A stretch of DNA of 12,579 nucleotides from Clostridia bacterium. GTDB lineage: Bacteria > UBA6262 > WVXT01 > JAUXBS01. Made by a program: the position numbers and the translations under genes. The notes beneath the pieces were generated by a model, which saw only the letters and a program-made list of their open reading frames with translations, did not search any database and had not been told where the DNA came from. Below, piece after piece: positions 1 through 12,533 of this stretch. Numbering within the stretch: position 1 is the stretch's first letter; every line of letters begins with the position of its first letter. The DNA lies in contig JAUXDE010000047.1 of the NCBI GenBank assembly GCA_030618495.1, positions 1 through 12,579 on the forward strand, in the 5' to 3' direction.

Positions 1-51
1 TTCAAGGAAAGACGACGAAGGCATATCGAGAATATGGCTTGTACTCTGTCT
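1..51. repeat. Possible fragment of a structured repeat module
   Basis: No coding region is visible here. The stretch carries a short hairpin (CATAT at 22-26, loop CGAGA, ATATG at 32-36) preceded by TTCAAGG and GACGACGAAGG. This layout resembles the module at 93-150 inside the neighbouring element, which also has TTCAAGG followed by a short hairpin with different stem bases. I read it as a partial or diverged copy of the same repeat family, cut by the window edge. The resemblance is short and was judged by eye, so it is tentative. Confidence 0.3.
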
Positions 52-294
52 CATAAATTACCGTTATTTTTGAGGCTATAGTCTGAGGTGAATTCAAGGC
101 GTTAGGAGAGCGCAATGCGGTGGCATTGTAACCGACGAAACAACGAAGAAGTCGACCGGAATTTAGCCTCCCGAAGGGCTTCGGGCTTTTGGCCTGTGCC
201 TTTGCAACACTCGGCTTACATACACCAGGTATGCTCGCCTCTCGTTGCTTCGGTGCGGCTCAAAATCCCCTGGCAAAAATAACGGGAATTTATG
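52..294. repeat. Intergenic element with 21-bp terminal inverted repeats
   Basis: The ends 52-72 and 274-294 are inverted copies matching at 20 of 21 positions; the mismatch is 60 against 286. Between them lie a hairpin at 113-128 (CAATGC / GCATTG), a hairpin at 170-185 (CCCGAA / TTCGGG) and a hairpin at 219-233 (CATAC / GTATG). The outer two sit in similar flanking sequence in opposite orientation, so the element is roughly symmetric about its centre. No ORF of useful length is present and I see no clear target-site duplication. It could be a MITE-like or REP/BIME-like dispersed repeat, or a structured RNA. The right end lies just before the ribosome binding site of the gene at 311, so the element forms most of that gene's upstream region. 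The inverted repeats are certain; the class is inference. Confidence 0.7.
170..190 (+). terminator. Terminator-like hairpin inside the intergenic element
   Basis: CCCGAA at 170-175 pairs with TTCGGG at 180-185 around a GGGC loop and is followed by CTTTT. The form is that of a small rho-independent terminator, but the T-run is only four bases and is followed by GG, so termination would be weak. It also marks the centre of the inverted-repeat element and may simply be a structural part of it. Confidence 0.35.
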
Positions 295-310
295 TTAAGG
301 AGCACTTATA

Positions 311-1597
311 ATGGCTGAAATAGCGCCGTTCAACGGGATTTTTTATAACAAGGGTAAGATTGGCGATATTATGAAGGTCGTTGCCCCTCCCTATGATGTT
401 ATTTCCGATGAAGAAAGAGAGAAGTATTACAATAACAGTGAATCCAATATCATACGTATAATACTTGGCAAGGATTCTCCCGGGGATGACAAGGAAAATA
501 ACCGTTATTCCCGCGCGGAGAAATTTATGCTTAAATGGCTGGACGAAGGAATACTTAAAAGAGACGACAAGCCGGCAATTTACCTGCTTGAACAGGAGTA
601 TGGTTTGCCTGACGGTTCAAGAAAAGTAAGGAAGGGCTTCATAAGCCTGGTTAAACTGGACCAATACAATTGGGTGCGTCCTCATGAGAAAACGCTCTCA
701 GGCCCCAGGGAGGACAGGCTCAGGTTGTTCCGGTCCTGCAGGTCGAATTTCAGCCCTATTTTTACATTTTACTCGGACCCTTCAAAGTCAGCGGGTGAAA
801 TTATCGCGGAAAAAGAAAAGTCAGAACCTGACATGATACTTGACAGTATTAAGGGTGTCAGGGAGTCGTTGTGGAAAATTAACGAAGAAGGCCTTGTCCG
901 GAAGTTAGTGGAAATGATGAAGAGCAAGATGTTCTACATCGCTGACGGGCATCACCGTTACGCAACCGCCTTGAACTACCAGTCTCAAATGAAGGCGGCA
1001 AATCCGGGTTCTGGTGGCGATGAGCCTTATAATTACACGATGGTGTATTTCACCAACATGGAAGATGAAGGTATTACTATTTTTCCCACGCACCGCATGG
1101 TAAGGGATTTACCGGATTTCAATATAGATGTTTTAATGAAGAAGTTGGAACTGTATTTTGATATAATATCCTGCGGTGGCAGGGAAGATATGTTAAAGCG
1201 TCTTTCGGATTCTGATGACAACAGCGAAATAGGCATGTATACCGGAGGAGATAATTTTTTCGTGCTTAAACCTGGGAATGAAAATGTCTTAAACAATATT
1301 ATCAAGGGCAGGCCCGGGGCGTATTACAGGTTGAATGTCGCTGTTCTTCACGAACTGGTCATGAACAGGGTTTTAAACGTGTCCGGGGACACGTTTAAGA
1401 ATATTGTTTATTCCAAGGATGTGGACGAGGTTATAAAAAAAGTGAAGGAAGGTTCGGTTCAAGCGGGATTCATGCTTAAGCCCATTGGTATATCCGAACT
1501 CAGGGATGTGGTGGAATCCGGGGAGTTAATGCCCAGAAAGGCAACTTACTTCTTCCCGAAGCTTTTAAGCGGCATGGTTATTAACAGGATAAAATGA
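311..1597 (+). CDS. DUF1015 family protein
   Basis: This 428-residue cytoplasmic protein matches the DUF1015 family in length and motifs. I see the N-terminal VAPPYDVIS (residues 24-32), the HEKTLSGPREDRLRL block (125-139), the hallmark ADGHHRYATAL (211-221) and FPTHRMV (258-264). The His- and Asp-rich central motif suggests a metal or phosphate-binding catalytic site, but I know of no established biochemical activity for the family. In some bacteria members lie near serine biosynthesis genes; nothing here supports that link. The ATG at 311 has a good Shine-Dalgarno sequence (AAGGAGC, 297-303). The stop overlaps the next start by 4 nt (ATGA), indicating translational coupling to the TPR gene. 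There is no signal peptide or membrane segment. Family assignment is firm; function is unknown. Confidence 0.88.
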   Translation: MAEIAPFNGIFYNKGKIGDIMKVVAPPYDVISDEEREKYYNNSESNIIRIILGKDSPGDDKENNRYSRAEKFMLKWLDEGILKRDDKPAIYLLEQEYGLPDGSRKVRKGFISLVKLDQYNWVRPHEKTLSGPREDRLRLFRSCRSNFSPIFTFYSDPSKSAGEIIAEKEKSEPDMILDSIKGVRESLWKINEEGLVRKLVEMMKSKMFYIADGHHRYATALNYQSQMKAANPGSGGDEPYNYTMVYFTNMEDEGITIFPTHRMVRDLPDFNIDVLMKKLELYFDIISCGGREDMLKRLSDSDDNSEIGMYTGGDNFFVLKPGNENVLNNIIKGRPGAYYRLNVAVLHELVMNRVLNVSGDTFKNIVYSKDVDEVIKKVKEGSVQAGFMLKPIGISELRDVVESGELMPRKATYFFPKLLSGMVINRIK

Positions 1598-4027: not shown

Positions 4028-4462
4028 ATGCAGATTACCGAGATTCGCGTGTATCCGAGGAACGAAGAGAAACTAAAAGCTTTTATAACGGTGACTTTCG
4101 ATGATGCATTTGTCGTCCGTAATCTGAAGGTGATTCAGACCAAGGAAAACCTGTTTGTGGCGATGCCTTCAAGGAAAATGGCTGATGGTACCCATAAGGA
4201 TATAGCCCATCCCATTAACAACGAAACCCGCAAGCATATTGAGGAAAAAGTACTTGCTGCCTACAAGCAGAAAATAAGCGAAGAAGGTGTTGAGAAAAAA
4301 TCTGCGCCTGAACAAAAAATAAGCGAAGAAAATGTTGAGAAAAAACCCGCGCCTGAACAAAAAACAAGCGAAGAAGGTGTTGAGAAAAAACCCGCGCCTG
4401 CCAGGACGGAATTTGGAGGAGGGGAAACTTCTGCTACGGAAGCAGAAGACAAGGTGGAATAA
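4028..4462 (+). CDS. spoVG: SpoVG family nucleic-acid-binding regulator with repeated C-terminal tail
   Basis: Residues 1-80, beginning MQITEIRVYP and including VAMPSRKMADGTHKDIAHPI (44-63), form a complete SpoVG domain. SpoVG binds DNA and RNA and, in Gram-positives, affects septation, sporulation and virulence gene expression. It is also present in many non-sporulating phyla, so it does not imply sporulation here. The family is usually about 85-100 residues; this one is 144 because of three tandem 15-residue units (81-125) plus a Gly/Glu-rich end. The tail is charged (E and K), proline-containing and probably disordered. An AGGAGG Shine-Dalgarno sequence (4014-4019) fixes the start. A weak hairpin (AGCAC / GTGCT, 3991-4002) lies in the ispE-spoVG gap. 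The position before glmU-prs matches the Bacillus order, with purR and yabJ absent. Confidence 0.95.
   Translation: MQITEIRVYPRNEEKLKAFITVTFDDAFVVRNLKVIQTKENLFVAMPSRKMADGTHKDIAHPINNETRKHIEEKVLAAYKQKISEEGVEKKSAPEQKISEENVEKKPAPEQKTSEEGVEKKPAPARTEFGGGETSATEAEDKVE
4268..4402 (+). repeat. Three 45-bp in-frame tandem repeats in spoVG
   Basis: Three consecutive 45-bp units encode QKISEEGVEKKSAPE, QKISEENVEKKPAPE and QKTSEEGVEKKPAPA. They differ at only a few bases each, so duplication was fairly recent or the copies are kept alike. The unit length is a multiple of three, so changes in copy number keep the reading frame. Confidence 0.9.
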
Positions 4463-12032: not shown

Positions 12033-12533
12033 ATGTCTATGCCAACCTACGAGGCAATGTTCGTGAACCGAGCTGAAACGCCACCTGAAAAAATCAAAGA
12101 AATAACTGAAAGGATTAAGGCAACTATTACCCAGGATGACGGTGAGATATTTTTGTCCGAAAACTGGGGTAAGAGAAAGCTGACTTTTGAAATGAAGGGG
12201 TGCAGGGACGGTAATTATTCCCGCATTGTTTTTTCCACAAAACCCGCGTTTATCAAGGAGTTAAACAAGTCACTCCAGATCGATGATGACGTTATCAGGC
12301 ATATCATCGTGAAAACGCCTAAGAATGCCGGAAAAACATTGGAAAAAAACGAAAAAGAAGGCAGTGACGGTGAAAAGAAGGTAGAGGTAGCGAAAGTGGA
12401 AGAGGTAGCGAAAGTGGAAGAGGTAGCGAAAGTGAAAGAGGTAGCGAAAGTGGAAGAGGTAGCGAAAGCGGAAGAGGTAGCGAAAGCAGAAGGGGTAGTG
12501 AAGGAAGAAGAAAAAACGGGAAAGGAGGTATAG
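12033..12533 (+). CDS. rpsF: 30S ribosomal protein S6 with repeated Val-Ala-Lys-Val-Glu-Glu tail
   Basis: S6 binds 16S rRNA with S18 on the platform of the small subunit. Residues 4-97 form the complete S6 domain: YEAMFVNRAETPPEKIKEI, ENWGKRKLTFEMKGCRDGNY and LQIDDDVIRHIIVK. A typical S6 has 95-130 residues; this one has 166. The extra part is a Lys/Glu-rich linker and seven hexapeptides from residue 119 (VAKVEE with variants VAKVKE, VAKAEE, VAKAEG and VVKEEE), likely helical or disordered and pointing away from the core. Acidic tails on S6 are known elsewhere (E. coli S6 carries added glutamates), but this repeat is distinctive. The Shine-Dalgarno AAGGAGGT is near-perfect. It is followed by ssb after 3 nt, the usual rpsF-ssb-rpsR order. 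Confidence 0.96.
   Translation: MSMPTYEAMFVNRAETPPEKIKEITERIKATITQDDGEIFLSENWGKRKLTFEMKGCRDGNYSRIVFSTKPAFIKELNKSLQIDDDVIRHIIVKTPKNAGKTLEKNEKEGSDGEKKVEVAKVEEVAKVEEVAKVKEVAKVEEVAKAEEVAKAEGVVKEEEKTGKEV
12387..12494 (+). repeat. Six 18-bp in-frame tandem repeats in rpsF
   Basis: Six consecutive 18-bp units of the form GTAGCGAAAGTGGAAGAG encode VAKVEE-type hexapeptides. The first copies are almost identical at DNA level, later ones carry a few changes (GTG to GCG or GCA; GGA to AAA). A seventh degenerate unit extends to 12512. The near-identity and 3n unit length suggest slippage-prone expansion that keeps the frame. Confidence 0.92.

Follow-up and report, generated by a model that had tools for sequence, protein, structure and literature searches.

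A probable foldback MITE upstream of a DUF1015 gene and the diverged element families that share its fold more than its sequence

Bacterial MITEs are short, non-coding, dispersed elements with inverted ends and a short target duplication that do not carry a transposase of their own. A MITE family usually corresponds to a single interior derived from a parent element, and MITE interiors are normally viewed as dispensable filler. Other repeats with inverted symmetry include the REPINs and BIMEs associated with RAYT, which are palindromic, intergenic and present in many copies, as well as ERIC, Correia and similar foldback repeats, which are foldable, imperfect palindromes located in intergenic regions beside genes. 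Elements of the IS481 family, such as IS481 and TnRErm46/ISRe46, have CTAG targets and ends that start with TG and finish with CA; NCTAGN repeats have been described for TnRErm46 (PMC6794481). Additionally, template switching is reported as a process that creates and maintains RNA hairpins (PMC8794818) and that occurs at quasipalindromes in E. coli (PMC7202029).

The element considered here is located near the start of a 12,579-nucleotide stretch of DNA (contig JAUXDE010000047.1; hereafter the window). The original prediction described a non-coding element at positions 52–294 whose ends match at 20 of 21 inverted positions (52–72 and 274–294). The match of the ends is confirmed, and no ORF of at least 80 aa is found within the element; the borders, by contrast, are corrected to 42–304 (263 bp) based on the alignment of complete copies (Table 1). 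The inverted match extends outward to 41–72 and 274–305, where the two sides are 81% complementary over 32 nt, and the terminal inverted repeats of the window copy are imperfect and about 30 nt long. These ends are of the family A type (TGCTCTGTRACATAAATT-like). With up to 3 mismatches allowed, the genome of the window contains 25 occurrences of the 21-nt end and 0 of a reversed control, indicating that the inverted ends are far above chance.

Table 1. Positions of the element, its parts and the adjacent features in the window.
Feature	Position	Strand	Remarks
Part of a family B element, to about B position 88	1..37	+	A inserted into B; B is cut by the contig start
CTTG, left target-repeat position, degenerate YTAR	38..41	.	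Compared with the CTAG/GTAG/CTAC duplications of related elements
Complete element of family A, probable foldback MITE	42..304	+	263 bp; borders from alignment of copies and flanks
Left terminal inverted repeat TACTCTGTCTCATAAATTACCGTTATTTTT, subtype a end	42..71	+	5' side of terminal stem
Left hairpin arm of conserved fold	75..167	+	Helices 2–6
Short central hairpin CCCGAAGGG	170..178	+	Helix 7; near-invariant in families A and B
Right hairpin arm of conserved fold	184..268	+	Helices 8–11
Right terminal inverted repeat, subtype b end	275..304	-	TGCTCC.. on minus strand; 3' side of terminal stem
AAGGAG, Shine-Dalgarno-like site	297..302	+	Mutated right terminal repeat; 8 nt before ATG
CTTA, right target-repeat position, degenerate YTAR	305..308	.	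Copy flanks
Gene for DUF1015 protein, directly downstream	311..1597	+	PF06245, E 1.2e-90

Further copies of the element have been identified by sequence searches. In its own genome (a 1.69-Mb assembly of 179 contigs), family A occupies about 17 places, represented by 24 BLAST pieces; one genome of the same genus yields 11 pieces at about 8 places, and family A is not found in 58 other genomes searched; these copy numbers are derived from searches and from sequence stretches of the genome. Family B is more abundant, occupying about 30 places. The search for copies proposed with the original prediction thus returned many copies rather than one. Assignment to the MITE class is supported, as the copies are scattered through two genomes of the same genus, mostly lie between genes and have matching ends. 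The second of these genomes bears the name 'Clostridia bacterium' CSMAG_2805; the kinship list contains hardly any other members of its order and, outside that order, nothing nearer than domain, and the name may be wrong.

The families are found inserted within one another. An identical junction between B and A is observed on four contigs (C92, C41, C42 and C178), and on two others (C63 and C64) B resumes, with the right part that is otherwise missing, after the right end of A. The shared junction and the resumption of B indicate that an A element was once inserted near position 88 of B; the resulting composite is now present at several places in the genome. Two copies, that of the window and that at C92:25.9 kb, combine a left end of the composite type with a right end of the other subtype, which abuts a host gene. 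Such mixed ends reflect either recombination with an A copy that was already in place or a chimera introduced by assembly across the repeat. A 266-bp element that defines family C is nested in an A copy at C157, and family D is nested in A copies at C92:6.6 kb of the same genome and at C147 of the other genome. All four families are 263–266 bp in length. Where pairwise identity was measured (families A, B and D), it is 47–52% for A and B, 46–51% for A and D, and 57–61% for B and D, and the alignments are almost gapless. A 292-kb sample scanned for inverted-repeat elements of similar length contained only families A–D and a few unrelated inverted repeats. An unrelated 121-bp near-perfect inverted repeat starting with GGGTCAGACCTTAACATTTAAC was also observed (L280, G000 C82, 1726–1846).

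The flanks of related elements provide information on the target. Exact 4-bp duplications occur in related elements, often as CTAG/CTAG and also as GTAG/GTAG and CTAC/CTAC, and because non-palindromic pairs are repeated as well, these are true 4-bp duplications. For this reason a TA-only duplication of the Tc1/IS630-like kind was dropped. Exact duplications are found around one intact family A copy (L256) and one B copy (L270), whereas the target repeats of the window copy are mismatched. The A element at L256 (375–637, G001 C137) lies between two convergent ORFs that end exactly at the element borders, where the palindromic CTAG target repeats seem to provide, through their TAG, a stop codon on each strand. 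The outer 19 nt of the ends, GTGCTCTGTRACATAAATT, are also present as exact matches in Stahlbacteria, Zixibacteria, Omnitrophota and the unplaced bacterium CSMAG_454, and with up to 3 mismatches there are 10–30 sites in each of four of the five genomes concerned. In these lineages (L124–L145 and L216–L255) the repeat bounds elements of about 100–230 bp with CTAG flanks, whose interiors are unrelated to families A–D and consist mostly of GTCATTCCCG-type hairpins. The exact end was not found in viral contigs. Matches to GTGCTCTGTRACATAAATT in Pseudoalteromonas and Alphaproteobacteria lack a plausible second end and are regarded as chance occurrences. The presence of a shared, CTAG-targeted end in distant lineages suggests that a single type of transposase has spread widely among uncultured bacteria.

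The same features bear on the BIME or REP class, to which the original prediction had alternatively assigned the element and which is not borne out. According to this explanation, the element would be a BIME or REPIN moved by the RAYT (Y1) transposase of its own genome. A RAYT-like gene of 218 aa is present at C61, scoring 65 bits against NF047646 (below the cut-off of 80), and the left flanks of the element often end in TAG. The gene is flanked by other repeats (GGGGACACGTACC) with no A or B end nearby, however, and terminal repeats of about 30 nt with real 4-bp target duplications are not features of REP sequences, making this explanation highly improbable. The inverted repeat that flanks the RAYT-like Y1 gene (L184, G000 C61, 1172–1828), GGGGACACGTACCTAATTATT, differs from the ends of the element.

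The element combines dispersal, matching ends, nesting, a shared fold and, among its relatives, 4-bp duplications, and it is probably a non-autonomous foldback-type DNA transposon (MITE) that is mobilized by a DDE transposase acting in trans and whose arms are kept complementary at the DNA level. The proposed transposase would recognize the TG...CA ends and cut at CTAG, a combination that makes it most likely a member of the IS481 family. Complementarity of the arms could be kept by template switching between them; alternatively, a cruciform or a single-stranded hairpin may be required in transposition or its control. Copies that persist are mostly codirectional with surrounding genes. The proposed enzyme is predicted from the ends and targets of the elements. 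A gene for an IS481-family transposase of 328 aa is located at a contig end in the genome of the window (L215, G000 C116, 1222–2208) and scores 187 bits, below the curated cut-off of 224. Its possible right end, TGTAACAGTTCAGGACTTTCTGG beside TAAG, is unlike the ends of families A–D, and its left end falls outside the assembled sequence. Six transposase families were searched in the element-bearing genomes and none with matching ends was found, although the assemblies are fragmented and the search was limited to these six, so that this absence is weak. The rve profile identified the IS481-type gene and an IS3-type fragment. DDE_3 (IS630), DDE_Tnp_1_6, DDE_Tnp_1, DDE_5 (IS701) and Y1 were either missing from both the genome of the window and the same-genus genome or unlinked to the ends. 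The IS3-type integrase-core fragment (L213, G000 C61, 1486–1767) is 93 aa long, and the rest of that element is not seen.

The secondary structure of the element has been probed using 15 complete or nearly complete copies, for which RNAalifold returned one structure made up of a terminal stem, a left arm, a central hairpin and a right arm. The terminal stem of about 30 pairs is built by the terminal repeats, and the overall fold is cloverleaf-like. The three small hairpins in the original prediction are present, but as parts of this larger conserved fold. In an alignment of 16 sequences, 91.1% of cells are paired and 55 of the 76 pairs have changes on both sides, where the 16 sequences represent only four deep lineages. 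The covariation score, for a fold derived from the same sequences, is 0.509, compared with 0.193 for shuffled controls and 0.07–0.135 with slid partners. Covariation extends beyond the ends and reaches the inner arms. A separate alifold run retained 49 pairs, 36 of them with double changes, and omitted most of the right arm. On its own, the window copy also folds better than its shuffles (z = -4.0 as DNA and -3.5 as RNA). Furthermore, motifs outside the pairs are near-invariant between families at about 50% identity, and families B, C and D retain residual inverted symmetry across the whole element. Families A–D share their fold more than their sequence.

It is doubtful, though conceivable, that these families constitute a superfamily of mobile elements that inherit a branched DNA (or RNA) fold as their unit in place of a sequence. 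In that case the fold itself would be recognized in transposition or on a transcript, and length, branching and pairing would have been kept for this reason while the sequence, including the terminal repeats, diverged to about 50% identity. A literature search on cloverleaf MITEs returned nothing. Four MITE families that have diverged to about 50% identity with the same length and fold in one genus provide a natural data set, which could be used to distinguish selection for a DNA fold in a transposon from its mere upkeep by template switching.

The conserved fold raises the question of whether the paired molecule is DNA or RNA. As a rival explanation, the element could be a mobile structured RNA whose plus strand is transcribed with the host operon, with selection acting on the RNA fold. 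Compensatory changes in nearly all helices are consistent with this explanation, and in 14 of 16 copies the plus strand is the more stably folded of the two, although the difference in stability is small and the 16 copies represent four lineages. RNA under selection on one strand should strongly favor G-U pairs. In contrast, in a structure derived without G-U pairs, the departures from Watson-Crick pairing comprise 13 G-U and 14 A-C, and since the two are equally frequent the fold looks like a DNA-level property, arising from template switching between the arms or from a need for the DNA fold. This count replaced a strand test on folds in which G-U was allowed, which was biased by the folding itself. 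Inverted symmetry across the whole element, as retained in families B, C and D, is also unexpected for an RNA, and the window copy contains no promoter- or terminator-like site. Rfam returned no match for the element up to E = 1, the only match elsewhere in the window being tRNA. Consequently, the structured-RNA alternative of the original prediction stands insofar as the fold is conserved with strong covariation, while the equal G-U and A-C counts and the mobility of the element speak against an RNA gene, and selection on a transcript is considered unlikely.

The orientation of the copies also fits a transcribed element, as the plus strand is codirectional with neighboring genes in 33 cases and opposite in 8 (two-sided binomial p = 1e-4, with ORFs used as gene proxies and composite copies, which have a common ancestry at different sites, counted as separate insertions). 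A second count in complete contigs of the genome of the window gave 26:4. Where third-position skew and gene direction disagreed (n = 9), 7 of 9 followed the gene. Because these contigs carry nearly all genes on one strand, the orientation bias is confounded with the bias of genes toward the leading strand, and transcription and replication are inseparable in them. In contigs L276–L315 of G000 the strand bias is very strong: in most of these contigs almost every gene lies on the same strand, usually in agreement with the GC skew. The mechanism proposed above gives no account of the orientation bias.

Within the preferred reading of a foldback MITE, a sub-case must be considered in which the fold has no function and template switching at imperfect palindromes simply copies one arm onto the other. 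The outermost bases of family B vary (TTTC, TTAC, TCTC and AATC), yet both ends match in most copies, and such matched, multi-nucleotide changes fit copying of one arm onto the other. The template-switching reports cited above and the lack of strand asymmetry in the departures are likewise in agreement with a functionless fold. On the other hand, the arms stay imperfect, the unpaired motifs noted above are near-invariant, and length varies only between 263 and 266 bp in the four families. This sub-case is a substantial possibility, falling somewhat short of an even chance, and if it is true the reason to call the fold selected falls away.

The original prediction also set the element directly against the ribosome binding site of the DUF1015 gene, and the AAGGAG in question proves to lie inside the right terminal repeat. 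The right end of the window copy reads GTTAAGGAGCAC, while most other A copies read GTTACAGAGCAC or GTTACGGAGCAC and have ACAGAG or ACGGAG at the position of AAGGAG. The end of the window copy consequently places AAGGAG 8 nt ahead of the ATG (Table 1), and the right repeat would supply what appears to be the Shine-Dalgarno sequence of the DUF1015 gene. The window copy thus looks like a transposon end that has been turned into a ribosome binding site, and its right end appears to have been co-opted for this role. At C92, the end ACGGAGCAC is located just before a reading frame that begins ATG GTA AAA and encodes a protein that we take, by eye, to be TrpF. Elsewhere in the window (12033–12533 and 4028–4462), unusual low-complexity tails are observed, comprising VAKVEE repeats in an S6-like protein (assigned by eye) and KISEEGVEKKPAPEQ-like repeats in SpoVG.

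Comparison with the systems introduced above places the element closest to the bacterial MITEs, with which it shares each of the features listed for them. It differs in that four diverged families have one length and one branched fold instead of one family with one interior, and in that no parent of families A–D was found in the genomes searched. The CTAG target and the TG and CA termini are shared with IS481-family elements; however, families A–D are non-autonomous, the duplication in their related elements is 4 bp whereas that of TnRErm46 is 6 bp (NCTAGN), and their terminal repeat is not common to the IS481-type gene of the same genome. The palindromic, intergenic and multicopy character of REPINs and BIMEs is also shared, although the element differs from these in its 30-nt terminal repeats, its target duplication, its length of 263 bp and the absence of linkage to RAYT. 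Finally, the element resembles ERIC, Correia and similar foldback repeats in being an intergenic, foldable, imperfect palindrome beside genes, but whereas ERIC and Correia are single sequence families, several families are found here that share a fold and little sequence.
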